Shown here in pieces: positions 52,398 to 61,468 of a stretch of DNA of 64,000 nucleotides; the stretch's first letter is position 1; the number at the start of each line of letters is the position of its first letter. The stretch covers positions 1 through 64,000 of the forward strand of contig CAMAXY010000006.1 in the NCBI GenBank assembly GCA_945862215.1, written 5' to 3'. Origin of the DNA: Singulisphaera sp. GP187. Its GTDB lineage: Bacteria; Planctomycetota; Phycisphaerae; Phycisphaerales; SM1A02. Made by a program: the position numbers and the translations under genes. Under the pieces are notes generated by a model, which saw only the letters and a list, made by a program, of their open reading frames with translations, was not told where the DNA came from and made no database searches.

Positions 52398-53925
52398 GAA
52401 CAACCTCAATAGAAACATTTCCCATTGTCGACAGCAAACTGGAGAAATCTGCGTCGAGTTGCGCATCGTCCTGTGCGCTAGTCGCCAGCAGCAGATGGCC
52501 TGGATGAAAGGAGCGTGAAGAAAGCGTTGCATCCAGATCGATCCATGCACCATCCACCTGCGCCTGAGTCCACATATGCCAAGCGAAAACATCTCGTTTT
52601 CCCGCGAATTCTTCTGCATAAACCATTCCGCTTGCAACCCGCGAAGGAATGCCTTGCGCTCGAAGCAATGCAGCCAAGAGAACCGCGTGCTCGGAACAAT
52701 CTCCGGCTTTCGATTGAGCGACTGCACTTGCTCCTGCAAATGCTGTCGCGAGATCTTTGTGAATAATAAATCGCATCACGAATGCACGAAGCGCTTCGGC
52801 ACGATCTGCAACTGGCGAAGTTTCATTCAGCCGAGCAGATGACACTGCCCGAAGAGCGAGATCGATTACAGCAGGATCCTTTGCATCGATCAAGATGCTT
52901 GACGCGAGATATCGAGCGTCGGCAAGTTCCTCTGCCGTCACAAGCGAAGTGCGACCCACGTCGATATCGACGAAAAGTCCCCCAGCTGAATTTGTTTCAA
53001 AACGCTGCGCGCCAGATGCAGGGAATACAAGTGCATCTCCATTGGTTGAACGCACCGCAATTCTTGCGTGGCGTGCAGTCAACAATTCTGGCGAAGGCTT
53101 CGCGAGCGAGACCATGCTGCGATCGATGAGATCAACTCCGCCAGTTGCGCTTGATCGTTTCGCTTGTGATTCACTGCATCGCAGCGCAATCATGTCGCCA
53201 ATCGCCATTTTCGTTCGGGAAAGAATGACTTCGCCATCGGCATCAACATCTTCCTCCGTTGGCATCGGCACAGCGCTATTCGTGGTGAGCCAACGAATTG
53301 TTTTCTTCGCTTCACCTTCTCCCATTCGCTTTGAGACCATATCGACGATTCGCAATCCACTCGATGGATCGACTGTGCGATAGGTGATTTCCGTGACTCC
53401 ATCCTTGCGGCGCGAGTTGACATTGCGCTCCACCTGTGCTGGAGTCCACCAAATGCCTTCGGGAGATGGCATCTTGCGCGACAAAGTGCGGCCTCCCGCT
53501 GTTTCATCGACTGCGACTTCTGTTTTAGAAAAGCGATAGATCGTGCGCGAAACTTCTGATCCAGATTCCTGCTGAACTTCGCATTCGATTGGTGTTCCAT
53601 CCGATGATTCGGTAAATTTCCAACCGACTCGAACGGTTGTCGAGGCGCCTGCTCTGCCCAAGGTCAGGCGAATCTCGTTGCTGGTTTGAATGCGATCGCC
53701 AAGAACTTCGAACTTTTCATGCATCCACCCACATTTTGTGCCGGCAATCGAAACCGTGAACCAGGAATCACGGGGGAAATTTTGCTCAGAAACTTGCCCA
53801 GAATTTTGCCCAGATTTTTGCGTCTGAACTGTTTGCGTTTTTCCATCTTCTGCAAATGCAGTCGAAGAAACCACAACCGCGCAGAGCGCGATCATGATTG
53901 CAATCAATCGCTCAAGTCGCAGCAT
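52384..53925 (-). CDS. Secreted transglutaminase-like domain protein
   Basis: Signal peptide; AGDCSEHAVLLAALLRAQGIPSRVASGMVYAEEF...FAWHMWTQAQVDGAWIDLDAT. Confidence 0.85.
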   Translation of the reverse strand: MLRLERLIAIMIALCAVVVSSTAFAEDGKTQTVQTQKSGQNSGQVSEQNFPRDSWFTVSIAGTKCGWMHEKFEVLGDRIQTSNEIRLTLGRAGASTTVRVGWKFTESSDGTPIECEVQQESGSEVSRTIYRFSKTEVAVDETAGGRTLSRKMPSPEGIWWTPAQVERNVNSRRKDGVTEITYRTVDPSSGLRIVDMVSKRMGEGEAKKTIRWLTTNSAVPMPTEEDVDADGEVILSRTKMAIGDMIALRCSESQAKRSSATGGVDLIDRSMVSLAKPSPELLTARHARIAVRSTNGDALVFPASGAQRFETNSAGGLFVDIDVGRTSLVTAEELADARYLASSILIDAKDPAVIDLALRAVSSARLNETSPVADRAEALRAFVMRFIIHKDLATAFAGASAVAQSKAGDCSEHAVLLAALLRAQGIPSRVASGMVYAEEFAGKRDVFAWHMWTQAQVDGAWIDLDATLSSRSFHPGHLLLATSAQDDAQLDADFSSLLSTMGNVSIEVVHVDR

Positions 53926-55495
53926 CTGCAGAACCTTCGGGGCGCATCAGAGGAAAGAGAATCACATCCCGAATCGATGGACTATCGGTCATCAGCATCA
54001 CAATGCGATCGATGCCCAGCCCCACTCCTCCAGCTGGCGGCATGCCAGTCCGAAGCGCTGTGATGAAATCTTCATCAAGCGTGCGCATGACCGCATCTTC
54101 TTCTTCGACGCCTTGCATCTGATCTGTGAACTTCGCAAGTTGAATATCAGGATCGTTCAGTTCGGTATACGCAGGCCCGACTTCCATGCCACCAATAAAA
54201 ATATCCCATCTCTCTGCAATTTCAGGGTTTTTTCGACTTGGACGAGTGAGTGGACTGATGGCACTTGGATAGTCCATCACAAATGTTGGGCGACATGGAT
54301 CGATCAATGCCTCTGCCTTGCGCTCGAATAGATCGTTCACCAGAAGCCAGTGATCGCGCGTCGCGGCATGTGCGAGATTCGCTGCAACTGCAGCTGCACG
54401 AACCTTCGCTTGATCGGTCATCGCAAATCCCATGGCGCGTTCGAAGAGATCGCCATATCGCACCTGCACAAACGGTCGGTGATAATCGATGCGCATTTCG
54501 CCCCAAGGCAAAATCGGACCTTCTTCCGCCCGTGCGCACCATCCCTTCGCAAGCGATTCGGTTGCACAATGATGAATCAGCGACTCAATCAGTTCGAGCA
54601 TCGTGCCATAATCGCCAAATGCTTCGTACGCTTCGAGTGCTGTGAATTCTGGATTGTGACTTCGGTCGACTCCCTCGTTGCGAAAATTTCGGTTGATCTC
54701 GAAGACCTTTGGAAGTCCGCCGACAAGCAACCGCTTCAGATACAACTCGGGCGCAATTCGCATAAAGAGCGGCATTCCAAGTGCATTGTGCGTTGTCACG
54801 AAAGGTCTCGCCGCAGCACCGCCAGCCACAGGATGCATCATCGGAGTCTCGACCTCTAGGAATCCACGGGTTTCCATGAAATGTCGGATCGCGCTGACAA
54901 TGTACGAACGCGCCTGAAATGTTTTGATGGTCTGCGGATTTGCAAACATATCCACATACCGTCGGCGATATCGCAATTCCGTATCTTCCAAGCCATGCCA
55001 CTTCGATGGCGGCGGTTCGAGATTCTTCGACTGAATCGATAACTGCTTTGCCCAAACACAAATCTCGCCTTTCTTCGTCTGTCCGATCCGACCCTCGGCG
55101 GAAATAATGTCGCCATAATCCAGTGCTTTGGCGACCTCGAAGTCAATGGCGGACATCGCAGACTTGGAAACGCTGATCTGCAAATCGCCGGAAGCATCGC
55201 GCAAACCGATGAAAATTATTTTTCCCATATCGCGGTGCTGAACAATTCGGCCAGCAACAATGACCACTGCGCGGTTGTCCGCAACGACTGCATCTGGATT
55301 TTCCTTCAAGACAGCGCTTGCAGCGTCATAGGCAGCGTGCGCCGAAGCATCGAATTGCGCGCGTGCGGCAGAAAGAGTGACATTTCCATCCAAACGATTT
55401 CCAAAGGGTTCTACGCCGAGTTCGGATTTGAGTCGCTCGAGCTTGACACGACGCGCTGCGATCAATTCTGAAGATGATGGCTCTGCATTCTGCAT
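53912..55495 (-). CDS. lysS: Lysyl-tRNA synthetase (class II)
   Basis: FLEVETPMMHPVAGGAAARPFVTTHNAL, FEINRNFRNEGVDRSHNPEFTALEAYEAF, GLGIDRIVMLMTD. Confidence 0.95.
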   Translation of the reverse strand: MQNAEPSSSELIAARRVKLERLKSELGVEPFGNRLDGNVTLSAARAQFDASAHAAYDAASAVLKENPDAVVADNRAVVIVAGRIVQHRDMGKIIFIGLRDASGDLQISVSKSAMSAIDFEVAKALDYGDIISAEGRIGQTKKGEICVWAKQLSIQSKNLEPPPSKWHGLEDTELRYRRRYVDMFANPQTIKTFQARSYIVSAIRHFMETRGFLEVETPMMHPVAGGAAARPFVTTHNALGMPLFMRIAPELYLKRLLVGGLPKVFEINRNFRNEGVDRSHNPEFTALEAYEAFGDYGTMLELIESLIHHCATESLAKGWCARAEEGPILPWGEMRIDYHRPFVQVRYGDLFERAMGFAMTDQAKVRAAAVAANLAHAATRDHWLLVNDLFERKAEALIDPCRPTFVMDYPSAISPLTRPSRKNPEIAERWDIFIGGMEVGPAYTELNDPDIQLAKFTDQMQGVEEEDAVMRTLDEDFITALRTGMPPAGGVGLGIDRIVMLMTDSPSIRDVILFPLMRPEGSADAAT

Positions 55496-55549
55496 CGTGC
55501 GATGATAATCAAGAGAGCGCAAGATCATTCGTCGGGGTACAGTCTCGAC

Positions 55550-56672
55550 ATGTATTTCGAAACCCATCAGCCAGTTCTCGACGATCTTCAGGCGCGGATT
55601 TTAGCCATCCGCGACTCTCTTTAACTACCCAGACAAGGTCTCACAACGCGCACGACTTGAAGCTCTCATGGGTGAGGGCGACTTCTGGAACGATCAGAAA
55701 CGAGCACAGAAAGCCATTTCTGATCTGAAGGTCATTCGAGCGATGCTCGATCCACTTGAAGAACTCGTCAAAGGTCACGAAGATGCAACTGTCGGACTCG
55801 AACTTGCACGCGAGGCCAACGATCGAGAAATGCTTATCGAAGTGGACACCAGTCTCCATGCACTGATGGCGCGAATGCAGCGCGTGGAATTGCAAAGTCT
55901 CTTGTCGGAGCGTCACGATCATCGACACTGCTTCTTTGCGATTCAAGCAGGCGTCGGCGGAACTGAAGCAAATGATTGGGCACAGATGCTCGAGCGTATG
56001 TATTTGTATTACTGGGAATCGATGGGATTCAAAGTGGAAGAAATGAGTCGCACGCACGGAACCGAAACTGGTATCGCGGAAGTCTCGTATGCGATTCGCG
56101 GTCCATTCGCATTTGGCTATTCATCGTGCGAATCAGGATCACACCGACTTGCACGCGTATCGCCCTTCAACGCAGAAGGCAAGCGACAGACTTCCTTTGC
56201 AACAGTCGATGTCACTCCAGAATTTGACGAATCAGAAATCGAAATTCCAGATCGCGACTTGGAAATTGTTGCGTTCGTTCGGGCGAGCGGACCTGGCGGG
56301 CAGAATGTCAATAAGGTTGCATCTGCGATTCGAGTTGTGCATATTCCCACGGGAATTCAGGTCGTTGCCAACACATTTCGAGATCAATCACAGAATCGAA
56401 AGCAAGCGCTTGCTGTGTTGATGTCGAAGTTGGAGCAGATTGCTCAAGAAAAACGCGACGCAGAAATTTCCGAAGCCAAAGGCGGCAAGGTCGAGCGCGG
56501 ATGGGGAACGCAGATTCGTTCCTATGTTTTTTATGACAACCGAGTGAAGGATCACCGTACGAACTATGAAGAGCCAAATCCTCAAAATGTTCTCAACGGA
56601 CACTTGAGTGCCTTCGTCGATGCCGAATTGAAGCGGCGTCGACGCGAGCGTGATGGCGTGCAAGCGGAATAA
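55550..56672 (+). CDS. prfB: Peptide chain release factor 2, requiring a +1 programmed frameshift at CTT TAA C (55619-55625)
   Basis: Zero frame MYFETHQPVLDDLQARILAIRDSL* then +1 frame NYPDKVSQRARLEALMGEGDFWND...; GGQ motif and RF2 SPF tripeptide. Confidence 0.92.
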
Positions 56673-56676
56673 AAAT

Positions 56677-58716
56677 ATGAATATTCATCCAGCTAAAATT
56701 CGCTTTGTTGACTTCGGTCGAATCGTCTGTAACGGAGACGAAGCATTTCGTCGTGAGTGGCTCGTCACGAATGGAATTGGCGGCTATGCCTCCGGGACAG
56801 TCGGAGGTGTACGCACGCGGAAATATCACGCGACGCTCATCGCAGCAACGACGCCCCCCGCCGTTCGCACCTTTCTCCTTGGAGAAACTTCGCCAACCGC
56901 CACGTATCGCGGCGTTCATTATCCGCTCAGTTCAAATCAATGGAAAGATGGATCAATCTCGCCACAGGGACACATTCGGCTTCAGAGATTTCATTTTGAG
57001 AATCAGATTCCCGTTTGGCGTTGGTCGTTTTCTGATGCACTCTTGGAACGCAGAATCTTCATGATTCATGGCGAAAACACAGTGTGCCAACATTGGACGC
57101 TCGTGCAGGCATCAAGCCCAATCCAACTGCAATTCGAAGTGCTTGTTGACAATCGAAGCCATCATCAAATTGGCAGACTCGATGCGGCAACGCCAGTCCT
57201 TGAACGCGCACCGCGTGGAATCAGACTGAGTTGGCCACATGCAAATGCCGGCGAGGGCTCTGAACTTTTCGTGCAGTGCGACAAGTCGGTGCCAACGCCG
57301 ACCGGTGAATGGTGGAAGGATTTTCTTCTCACGCAAGAGCGCGATCGTGGATATGACGCCATCGATTGTCTTTGGAGTGCTGCCAAATTTGAAGTGGTAC
57401 TCGATCCAGGAACTTCAACGGACTTCACAGCATCAACCAAATCACAGAACCAACGTCCAGTCGGCGAGGCACTTCAGGCGGAACGATCTCGTGCTGAATC
57501 ACTCTTTGCCACTGCGCAAGTTGAGGACGACAAAACAGCGCTTCAACAATTGGTCCTTGCGGCAGACCAATTCATTGTCAAACGCAAGCGCAAAGGTCCG
57601 CAGGGTGAGGATGGAATTTCCATCATCGCAGGCTATCCATGGTTCGCTGATTGGAGCCGTGACGCAATGCTCTCTGTAGCCGGACTTTTGCTGGCGACTC
57701 GCAGAATTGCCGAAGCTCAGATATTGCTCTTGACATACGGCGATTATCTCGATGGCGGCATGCTGCCAAATCGTTTCCCTGATCATGATGGAGATGCACT
57801 GGAATACAACAGCGTTGACGCTCCGCTGCTGATGATCATCGCAACAGAAAAGGTTTTCGCTGCAGGAAAAGATGCTAAATGGCTCGCAGAAATGTGGCCA
57901 GGACTGCAATCAATTATTGCTGCATACACAAAGGGAACTCGGCATGGAATCAGCGTAGATCCCAAAGATGGGCTCGTGCGTGCTGGTGAAAATGGAATTC
58001 AGTTGACTTGGATGGATGCGAAGGTCGGCGATCGAGTCATCACTCCACGCCAAGGCAAACCGATTGAGATCAACGCATTCTGGTTCCAAGCACTGATGGC
58101 AATGAAAACCCTCGGAGCAGTGTTGAAGCAACCAACTGATGCGTACGAGCAAGCGGCGGCGCGCGTCCAAAATTCATTCGGCGCATTCTGGAATCACGAT
58201 CGATCATGTTGCCTCGACGTGATCGATGGACCAAATGGATCAGAAAATTTACTACGACCAAATCAACTCTTCGCATCGGCAATAACCCAAGGTCTCTTGC
58301 CACAAGGCCAACGCAAAGCAATCATCGATCTGTGTATGGCTCGACTCTGGACACCACAGGGACTTCGCACGCTCAGTCCAGATGATCCGGCGTATTGCGG
58401 AAACTATGGCGGTGATCCTGCATCGCGTGACGGTGCATATCACCAGGGAACAGCTTGGCCTTGGCTCTTTATGCCAATGGTTCAGACTCACTTTGGCATC
58501 TATAAAGATGCACAAGCAATTCAAGACTTTCTCTTCCCGTTTTTTAATCATCTGCGCGAGGCTGGGCTTGGTTCCGTCAGTGAAATTTTTTCCGGTGATG
58601 CACCACACCAACCGCAGGGATGCTTCGCACAAGCTTGGAGCGTCGCTGCGTTGCTTGAACTGATGGATTGGATGCGCGTCAATAACCAAACACCCGCAAG
58701 TATCTTGAATTTATAA
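56677..58716 (+). CDS. Glycogen debranching enzyme (amylo-alpha-1,6-glucosidase family)
   Basis: REWLVTNGIGGYASGTVGGVRTRKYHATLIA; GYPWFADWSRDAMLSVAGLLLATRR. Confidence 0.9.
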   Translation: MNIHPAKIRFVDFGRIVCNGDEAFRREWLVTNGIGGYASGTVGGVRTRKYHATLIAATTPPAVRTFLLGETSPTATYRGVHYPLSSNQWKDGSISPQGHIRLQRFHFENQIPVWRWSFSDALLERRIFMIHGENTVCQHWTLVQASSPIQLQFEVLVDNRSHHQIGRLDAATPVLERAPRGIRLSWPHANAGEGSELFVQCDKSVPTPTGEWWKDFLLTQERDRGYDAIDCLWSAAKFEVVLDPGTSTDFTASTKSQNQRPVGEALQAERSRAESLFATAQVEDDKTALQQLVLAADQFIVKRKRKGPQGEDGISIIAGYPWFADWSRDAMLSVAGLLLATRRIAEAQILLLTYGDYLDGGMLPNRFPDHDGDALEYNSVDAPLLMIIATEKVFAAGKDAKWLAEMWPGLQSIIAAYTKGTRHGISVDPKDGLVRAGENGIQLTWMDAKVGDRVITPRQGKPIEINAFWFQALMAMKTLGAVLKQPTDAYEQAAARVQNSFGAFWNHDRSCCLDVIDGPNGSENLLRPNQLFASAITQGLLPQGQRKAIIDLCMARLWTPQGLRTLSPDDPAYCGNYGGDPASRDGAYHQGTAWPWLFMPMVQTHFGIYKDAQAIQDFLFPFFNHLREAGLGSVSEIFSGDAPHQPQGCFAQAWSVAALLELMDWMRVNNQTPASILNL

Positions 58717-58741
58717 TTGGTCAACCGACACGAGTAAAAAT

Positions 58742-61468
58742 ATGGCAATAACTCCCGAAAAAAATTCCGCCTCGACGAACGCCGAACAATCTCGGATCAC
58801 CGATCTTCATGCAGGTCGAGCGAAGTGGCGAGACTTCGGTACTTTCTTGTCAGACCGTCAATGGGGAACTGTGCGAGAAGATTATTCGGCAGATGGCTCC
58901 GCGTGGAATTATTTCCCCCATGACGAAGCACGCAGTCGAGCCTATCGCTGGGGAGAGGATGGCATCGCTGGGTTCTGCGATCAAAAACAATTGCTTTGTC
59001 TTTCGTTGGCGCTGTGGAATGGACAGGATCCAATTCTCAAAGAGCGATACTTCGGCCTGACGAATGAACAAGGCAACCATGGCGAAGATGTCAAGGAAAA
59101 CTATTGGTTTCTCGATGCTGTTCCAAGCGGATCCTGGCAACGGATGCTTTATAAATATCCGCAGCGTGCCTATCCATATGACGAACTTGTGCGGGTGAAT
59201 GCTGCTCGAAGCAAACTGGAACGCGAGTTCGAATTGCTCGACACGGGAATCTTCGATGACGATCGATACTTCGATGTCTGTGTTGATTATGCAAAAGCAG
59301 ACACATCAGACATTCTGATGCGCATCGAGGTTTTCAATCGAGGTCCAGACCCTGCAACGATTCATGTTCTGCCCACGGCGCTCTTTCGCAATACATGGAC
59401 TTGGACGAATAGCGCCGCTCGCCCTGTGATGACAGAAACGAAAACCGCTGCCGGTCCGCAGATCGACATCACGCATCTCGATATGGCGCCAATGAAACTG
59501 CAATGCGAAGGCACACCCGAGTTACTGTTTTGCGAAAACGAAACCAATGTAGAACGACTAGATGGATTGCCGCGCAATGGAAAATTCTTCAAAGATGGGA
59601 TCAATGATCTCGTTGTGAATAAGGCTGCAAACACAGTAAATCCAGCCAAGTCTGGAACAAAGATGTCCGCTCAATATGTTCTTGAAATTGCACCTGGTCA
59701 ATCGAAGGTCGTTCGCATTCGTCTCAGTCCAGCAACGGCGAAAGTCGGGTTTGCCGACTTCGAAGCGATCATGACGAAACGGAAAACGGAGGCAGATGAG
59801 TTTTATGCGCAGAAGCAAACTCTCATCGACGATCCAGAACTACGAAAGATTCAGCGACAAGCGTGGAGTGGACTGCTGTGGAGTCAACAGACATATTCGT
59901 ATGAGGTTCGCAATTGGATCGCTGGAGATTCTGCAATGCCCCCACCACCTGCACCGCGAAAGACTGGGCGCAACAGCGATTGGCAGCACTTGGACAATCA
60001 CTTTGTTTTCTGTATGCCTGACTCTTGGGAGTATCCGTGGTACGCATCGTGGGACCTTGCCTTCCACTGTGTTGCATTGTCAGAGATTGATGCAGAAGAA
60101 GCGAAGAAGCAACTCTTGCATCTCATGATCGATCGATCGATGCACCCAAACGGGCAGATTCCTGCTTACGAATGGGCCTTTGGAGATGTCAATCCTCCTG
60201 TGCACGCATGGGCAGCGCTGCGTATTTACGAAATCGATCTAAAGCAAACCGGCAAATCTGATGACGGGTTCTTGCGCCAGATTTTCCACCGCTTGTTGTT
60301 AAATTTCACGTGGTGGGTGAATCGCAAAGATGCTGACGGACGCAATTTATTCGCCGGCGGATTCTTGGGACTTGACAATGTCGGCGTGTTCGATCGAAGT
60401 GCAGACTTGCCATCAGGCGCTGTGCTCCAGCAAGCTGATGGGACAGCGTGGATGGGAATGTTTGCATTGAACATGATGCACATGTCCGTCGAGCTGGCTT
60501 TGCATGATGGTGTGTATCAGGACATGGCGATGAAGTTCTTTATGCACTTTCTCGAAATCGCTTCGGCAATGGCAGACTTTGCCGGAACCGGTGAAGGCTT
60601 GTGGGACGATCAAGACAAATTTTATTACGATCGACTTCGCTTTCCTTCTGGTGAAACCATCCCGATGCGAGTCCAATCGATCGTCGGGCTCTTACCCCTC
60701 ACAGCTGTGCAGGTGATGAATCCCGAACGCCTTGCGCGGCTTCCACTTTTTAAAGAGCGCATCGAATGGGTCTTTGAAACTCGACCAGATCTCTCAAATC
60801 TCGTTTCACACTGGAATCAAGCTGGCAGAGGAGATCAGCGACTGTTCTCGCTTCTGCGTGGTCACCGAATGAAATGCTTGCTTCGTCGAATGCTTGACGA
60901 GAGCCAATTTCTTTCTGAGTTTGGAATTCGATCGATGTCACGCGCACTCGAAAATGATCCTTATGTGTTTTGGCATGATGGAACAAGTATGTCCGTGCGC
61001 TATTGCCCTGGCGAAAGTGCAACAGGTGCGTTTGGGGGAAACAGTAATTGGCGCGGTCCGATTTGGTTTCCAGTCAATTTCCTGATCATCGAAAGTCTTA
61101 TGCGCTTTCATGAGTATTACGGTGACGACTTTAAGATTGAATGTCCAACGGGATCGAAAAATATGATCACGCTTGAAGATGCCGCGAAAGAAGTCGCGAA
61201 TCGACTGATCAAACTCTTCCGCAAGGACGACAAAGGTCGACGTCCATCGCTGGGAGACCATCACAAGATGCAAGAGGATCCAAACTTCAGTGAACACATT
61301 CTCTTCAACGAGTATTACGAAGGGAACACTGGCCGCGGATGCGGTGCTTCGCATCAAACTGGTTGGACGGCGATGGTTGCGCATCTCATCACGCAATTCG
61401 GGTCGACCGCAACGAAGACCACCAAAGAAGATACGACTTCGAACACCACAGAGAAAATCAAGGCGTGA
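58742..61468 (+). CDS. Glycoside hydrolase family 63-like glucosidase
   Basis: WGTVREDYSADGSAWNYFPHDEARSRAYRWGEDGIAGFCD; WYASWDLAFHCVALS; RGPIWFPVNFLI. Confidence 0.85.
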   Translation: MAITPEKNSASTNAEQSRITDLHAGRAKWRDFGTFLSDRQWGTVREDYSADGSAWNYFPHDEARSRAYRWGEDGIAGFCDQKQLLCLSLALWNGQDPILKERYFGLTNEQGNHGEDVKENYWFLDAVPSGSWQRMLYKYPQRAYPYDELVRVNAARSKLEREFELLDTGIFDDDRYFDVCVDYAKADTSDILMRIEVFNRGPDPATIHVLPTALFRNTWTWTNSAARPVMTETKTAAGPQIDITHLDMAPMKLQCEGTPELLFCENETNVERLDGLPRNGKFFKDGINDLVVNKAANTVNPAKSGTKMSAQYVLEIAPGQSKVVRIRLSPATAKVGFADFEAIMTKRKTEADEFYAQKQTLIDDPELRKIQRQAWSGLLWSQQTYSYEVRNWIAGDSAMPPPPAPRKTGRNSDWQHLDNHFVFCMPDSWEYPWYASWDLAFHCVALSEIDAEEAKKQLLHLMIDRSMHPNGQIPAYEWAFGDVNPPVHAWAALRIYEIDLKQTGKSDDGFLRQIFHRLLLNFTWWVNRKDADGRNLFAGGFLGLDNVGVFDRSADLPSGAVLQQADGTAWMGMFALNMMHMSVELALHDGVYQDMAMKFFMHFLEIASAMADFAGTGEGLWDDQDKFYYDRLRFPSGETIPMRVQSIVGLLPLTAVQVMNPERLARLPLFKERIEWVFETRPDLSNLVSHWNQAGRGDQRLFSLLRGHRMKCLLRRMLDESQFLSEFGIRSMSRALENDPYVFWHDGTSMSVRYCPGESATGAFGGNSNWRGPIWFPVNFLIIESLMRFHEYYGDDFKIECPTGSKNMITLEDAAKEVANRLIKLFRKDDKGRRPSLGDHHKMQEDPNFSEHILFNEYYEGNTGRGCGASHQTGWTAMVAHLITQFGSTATKTTKEDTTSNTTEKIKA

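Follow-up and report, generated by a model that had tools for sequence, protein, structure and literature searches.

The window, that is, the whole 64,000-nucleotide stretch of DNA analysed here, carries the gene for release factor RF2 (prfB) in two overlapping reading frames (Table 1). The first frame opens at the ATG at 55550 and encodes MYFETHQPVLDDLQARILAIRDSL up to and including CTT (55550-55621); TAA (55622-55624) and C (55625) follow. From AAC at 55623 the +1 frame reads NYPDKVSQRARLEALMGEGDFWND... and stays open until the stop at 56672. The NCBIfam prfB HMM, TIGR00020, matched from 55617 onward with 379 bits (cut-off 370), and the part from the listed ATG at 55668 alone scored 373 bits. 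Because the profile matches from 55617, the segment 5′ of 55668 is RF2 coding sequence. The course of the gene proposed in an earlier note on this DNA, from ATG 55550 into CTT TAA C and then by a +1 shift into RF2, was borne out by the sequence together with this match. Downstream of prfB, 56650-61468 holds two glycosidase-type genes; one ORF is glycogen debranching enzyme-like (TIGR01561, 359 bits, just below the cut-off of 364) and the other gene gave a weak match to glucosylglycerate hydrolase.

Table 1. Features of the prfB locus in the window
Feature	Coordinates	Strand	Remarks
lysS (lysyl-tRNA synthetase) ORF	53912..55567	-	divergent, context only; first listed start inside prfB ORF1
prfB ORF1, 24 codons and UAA stop	55550..55624	+	peptide MYFETHQPVLDDLQARILAIRDSL, then stop; relatives conserve both peptide and start Met
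Hairpin 5′ arm, CGCGGAT	55593..55599	+	in-register pairing in 122/132 class sites
Hairpin loop, TTTAGCC, 7 nt	55600..55606	+	sequence variable, length fixed in standard register
Hairpin 3′ arm, ATCCGCG	55607..55613	+	covariation with 5′ arm
Spacer, ACTCT, 5 nt, E-site codon TCT included	55614..55618	+	without SD-like sequence
Shift site, CTT TAA C	55619..55625	+	predicted slip of P-site Leu codon CUU to UUU; stop UAA; next base C
prfB ORF2, +1 frame, RF2 main body from AAC (N), stop included	55623..56672	+	TIGR00020

In the bacterial RF2 gene the ribosome must slip one base at an early stop codon, and the autoregulatory +1 site of the E. coli type reads AGGGGG UAU CUU UGA C. This frameshift is a textbook example, with a Shine-Dalgarno (SD) stimulator said to be conserved almost everywhere. 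The window site shares with the E. coli type the early in-frame stop with RF2 in two overlapping frames, the main body being in the +1 frame, the slippery codon CUU_U and the C after the stop, all of them hallmarks of the prfB frameshift cassette; UCU as E-site codon is also a usual spacer codon. It differs in that UAA stands for UGA, the stop in 98.6% of known cases, and in that a conserved hairpin is found instead of the internal SD (about AGGGGG) 3 nt before CUU. UAA is a recognised minor variant and is therefore compatible with membership of the cassette. Because the internal SD is missing, the site was filed as a variant and not as a plain member. Tabulation of 58 relatives of the same order (probably Phycisphaerales), a check proposed earlier, gave CTT TRA C at the homologous place in 53; the frames are fused in 4, and L054 was left out (wrong gene end). 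Since 53 of 58 relatives share the site, the sequencing or assembly error that had been named as a possible refutation was excluded. UAA at the shift site had been read correctly, and it recurs in near-identical and in distant relatives.

A 7-bp hairpin, CGCGGAU-UUUAGCC-AUCCGCG (55593-55613), ends 5 nt 5′ of CUU. With the C of CUU numbered 0, its arms lie at -26 to -20 and -12 to -6. The stem alone was calculated at -9.1 kcal/mol and the local fold at -11.0; a stable hairpin adjoining the E site, as here, is one mark of an upstream refolding hairpin stimulator, the other being that an intact stem raises +1 frameshifting. No SD precedes CUU: the bases there are GCCATCCGCGACTCT, for which the antiSD duplex energy is +0.1 kcal/mol, versus -10.2 for AGGGGGTAT, and none of the sites of the order reached an antiSD duplex of -5 or below. 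By comparison, the prfB SD has been described as hyper-conserved, approaching AGGGGG, 3 nt before CUU (PMC12421855). A changed 16S antiSD as the cause of the missing SD was rejected, GGATCACCTCCTTT being intact in 10 of 10 relatives tested. The window's own genome (G000, rated 93% complete) gave no 16S rRNA match, probably owing to a missing contig. A known Rfam element at the hairpin was likewise rejected, as no Rfam family matched. The single-sequence fold of the window site was only mildly better than shuffles (z -1.63). Taken alone it is weak evidence, and the case therefore rests on comparison.

At least six of the seven pairs form in the same register in 122 of 132 sites of the class, apparently Phycisphaerae, versus 2 of 83 sites outside it. 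RNAalifold, unprompted, returned exactly this stem (73 and 50 distinct sites). Standard pairs fill 96.3% of the pair cells versus 86.6% in shuffles, fall to 13-51% when the register is slid by 1-3 columns, and give a covariation score of 0.304 versus 0.132. Over 99 distinct sites the mean was 6.86 of 7 pairs, with all seven present in 88%. When the peptide was kept and synonymous codons were redrawn, the mean fell to 4.95 of 7 and 3.7% of the stems were complete; with codons permuted inside each column between identical amino acids, the values were 6.27 and 42%. Part of the apparent stem is thus amino-acid bias, because the peptide LxARIxxIRDSL alone yields about five of the seven pairs. A few sites of the class depart from the standard register, among them L141, with 4 of 7 pairs, and those of family f16, with an extended version of the hairpin.

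The pairs (-25,-7) and (-22,-10) join third codon positions, so that two-sided changes there can be silent. Pair (-25,-7) occurs as G-C, C-G, A-U and U-A, with five independent pair-keeping double changes on the RF2 tree. For pair (-22,-10) most sites have G-C; families f13, f18, f20 and f23 have A-U and f8, f12 and f22 C-G, among others. At both pairs together, 125 distinct sites hold 13 G.U and no A.C combinations, and one A.C is seen among the named loci (L301). That G.U is tolerated and A.C hardly ever points to RNA rather than to a DNA palindrome. Locus L130 (genome G273) encodes AQI...IYD in place of ARI...IRD, and 6 of 7 pairs are kept even though both Arg residues are replaced. The same locus has A-U where G-C is otherwise invariant. 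The stem was also recovered by an unbiased scan of genome_contigs (about 85,000 genomes) with ATCCGSGACTCTCTTTRAC, which specifies only the 3′ arm and the shift site and leaves the 5′ arm free. There were at least 119 matches, and all 119 listed read as RF2 sites, with the FW motif in 112 and LW at the same place in 7. All seven pairs form in 114 of the 119 listed, though the 5′ arm was unconstrained. The 80 records listed mostly bear the names Phycisphaerae, Phycisphaerales or Planctomycetota; one is Actinomycetota-named but apparently corresponds to a class member (G073:C97).

With regard to ALTERNATIVES within the phylum, SD-like words (AAGGA, GGGGG) stand before CUU in 44 of 83 sites, in 24 of 41 families, of the other classes. 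Inside the class they were found in 3 of 132 sites (L066, L103 and L106), of which L066 and L103 are without the standard stem; L115 also has AAGGA and no stem. SD-antiSD energies have a median of +0.1 for the order, -4.0 for the remaining sites of the class and -5.8 for the other classes. Family f12 holds both types, L066 with an SD and L092 with a hairpin. In the class's seven frame-fused orthologues 4-6 pairs form (mean 4.9), which is the null level, and the complete stem occurs in none of them.

In family f16 the hairpin is longer, with its base at the same position. Its members L100, L106, L107, L114 and L126 show GGAG/CUCU and CCC/GGG at the usual base and an upper stem GAGCGC/GCGCUC, and the extended hairpin is calculated at -18 to -21 kcal/mol. 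Genome G173 has two RF2 matches, one of which (L089) carries an SD-like GGAGCTATCTTTGAC and no hairpin; it may stem from contamination or transfer. Outside the class, hairpins at or near the same place were seen at L310 (f85), L392 (f105, arms GUCGCGGA/UCCGCGAC), L314 and L317, which suggests independent origins or an older one.

UAA is read by both RF1 and RF2 and UGA by RF2. In the order UAA is the majority state, with 34 UAA and 20 UGA among 54 sites; it occurs in 2 of 78 sites in the rest of the class and in 1 of 83 in the other classes of the phylum. An independent pattern search located the site in 193 of 251 genomes of the order, and a hand count of the 149 matches listed gave 99 UAA and 50 UGA. 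Other members of the same genus (L017, L019) have UGA. A FastTree phylogeny of 116 RF2 proteins implies about 18 switches of the stop, some each way, and either stop is thus apparently tolerated by the cell. From the known specificities, RF1 should compete at UAA as well, and this part of the earlier note's interpretation stands; its further step, a fundamentally altered feedback logic, gains no support here. UAA was reported in 1.4% of 8,164 frameshifting prfB genes, in several phyla and with no clade fixation (Prince, Lin and Feaga 2025, PMC12421855). The CUU UAA shift site is like those of that survey, in which UAA is scattered and the SD hyper-conserved, whereas in the present case most sites of an order have UAA and the SD is missing. 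A UAA at the prfB shift position is as such already known; what is unusual is how often this order has it. The hairpin in place of the SD, absent from the earlier note, is the stranger feature.

The locus is, on comparative grounds, very probably a functional programmed +1 prfB frameshift site with an mRNA hairpin in place of the internal SD. At the level of conserved RNA structure, assignment to this known kind of element, with a hairpin instead of an SD, is strongly supported. Under the simplest reading the natural hairpin would do what the SD does elsewhere. The ribosome translating ORF1 would unwind the hairpin. By the time CUU occupies the P site and UAA or UGA the A site, both arms would lie clear of the decoding region. 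The hairpin could then refold at the trailing edge, with about 2 nt between its base and the E-site codon, at the usual position of the SD-antiSD helix. Refolding might loosen the hold on the P-site tRNA or block backward movement; either would favour a slip of tRNA-Leu, CUU to UUU, as long as no release factor has acted on the weak stop with its following C. Low release-factor activity would allow more slippage and hence more RF2; with UAA, termination by RF1 as well as RF2 would compete. Refolding there requires structural proof, because a distance of 2 nt from the E-site codon places the base of the hairpin within the ribosome exit region.

Such a role has precedents. The hairpin resembles the refolding upstream hairpins of Cho 2013 (PMC3639245) and of Huang, Cho and Chang 2018 (PMC6321510) in being GC-rich and adjoining the E site. 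In a 70S system those hairpins stimulate +1 slippage at CUUUGA, whereas a stimulating effect at the present site would follow by analogy. When tested in an E. coli 70S cell-free system, a synthetic hairpin adjoining the E site was about 60% as effective as the SD in stimulating +1 frameshifting at CUUUGA; the effect was seen only without RF2, was weaker than that of the SD, and was much less with a destabilised stem (PMC6321510). A GC hairpin of 6 bp promoted +1 frameshifting in yeast, and for -1 frameshifting upstream hairpins are less effective the farther away they lie (PMC3639245). The stimulators tested at CUUUGA were designed, whereas the window hairpin is natural, lies inside a coding region and is conserved across a bacterial class. 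It is also like the 5′ stem-loop of T4 gene 60, an mRNA stem at the exit channel to which a driving role in ribosome movement is ascribed and which has been discussed as a motor of bypassing (PMC5009743). The T4 stem serves translational bypassing of a phage gene, and the prfB case is a single-base frameshift.

Other explanations of the locus were weighed against this reading. The frameshift could be an ordinary one and the hairpin a by-product of the conserved ARIxxIRDSL and high GC. The predisposition of the peptide to about five pairs and the modest z of the window fold speak for this. Against it stand the excess of all-seven stems over the synonymous-codon null, the compensatory double changes by which several lineages keep third-position pairs, the drop to null level in frame-fused orthologues and the six pairs of L130 with both Arg replaced, and a by-product is accordingly highly improbable. 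Since hairpins and palindromes are common as regulatory sites and the role of this one is a predicted one, it might instead be a separate regulatory element (a leader attenuator, a protein-binding RNA site or a DNA operator) that does not stimulate slippage. This is unlikely: throughout the class the hairpin stands 5 nt from CUU, its sites and those with an SD are mutually exclusive within the phylum and even within f12, frame-fused genes lack the full stem, the tolerance of G.U but not A.C favours RNA over a DNA operator, and no Rfam family was matched.

Two further alternatives concern the reading frame and the stop. RF2 could start without any frameshift at the ATG at 55668, by reinitiation after the upstream ORF; an ATG is indeed present there and the ORF is long. 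This has next to no probability: from the shift site to 55668 the DNA fits the prfB profile, its protein sequence is conserved throughout the order, the reading frame of fused orthologues runs straight across this stretch, and CTTTRAC is retained in the 53 relatives. Nor do relatives begin RF2 at this Met, as an earlier refuting condition had it: the upstream part is conserved and the Met is not (L031 has KMLNDRLSDENFW). The main adaptive novelty could also lie in UAA, as proposed earlier, with RF1 and RF2 jointly setting RF2 synthesis in a rewired loop. Both factors do read UAA, and UAA is the majority state in the order, but the roughly 18 interchanges on the tree are as expected for near-neutral exchange, and UAA at the prfB site was already known in several phyla, which makes this very unlikely.

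The preferred reading remains a hairpin that would act in place of the SD. Whether the whole class has swapped rRNA-mRNA pairing for an intra-mRNA hairpin, as a natural SD-independent stimulator of the RF2 frameshift, and whether in the window's order this often goes with UAA, such that the loop would read total RF1 and RF2 rather than RF2 alone, is a proposal for and against which the chances seem evenly balanced. In the open-access literature (most subscription papers lay outside the search) no natural upstream hairpin at prfB and no account of prfB frameshifting in Phycisphaerae was found. If the proposal is true, a duplex behind the E site would seem to be what matters, and not rRNA pairing as such; the natural covarying stems provide material for synonymous-mutant tests of this idea. 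In these genomes RF2 may be overlooked or cut short by annotation tools that seek an SD and CTTTGA. The prfB start of many relatives, L030 and L034 for instance, reads ATG CAC TTT GAC; it contains an out-of-frame CTTTGAC that could mislead motif-based annotation of the shift site.
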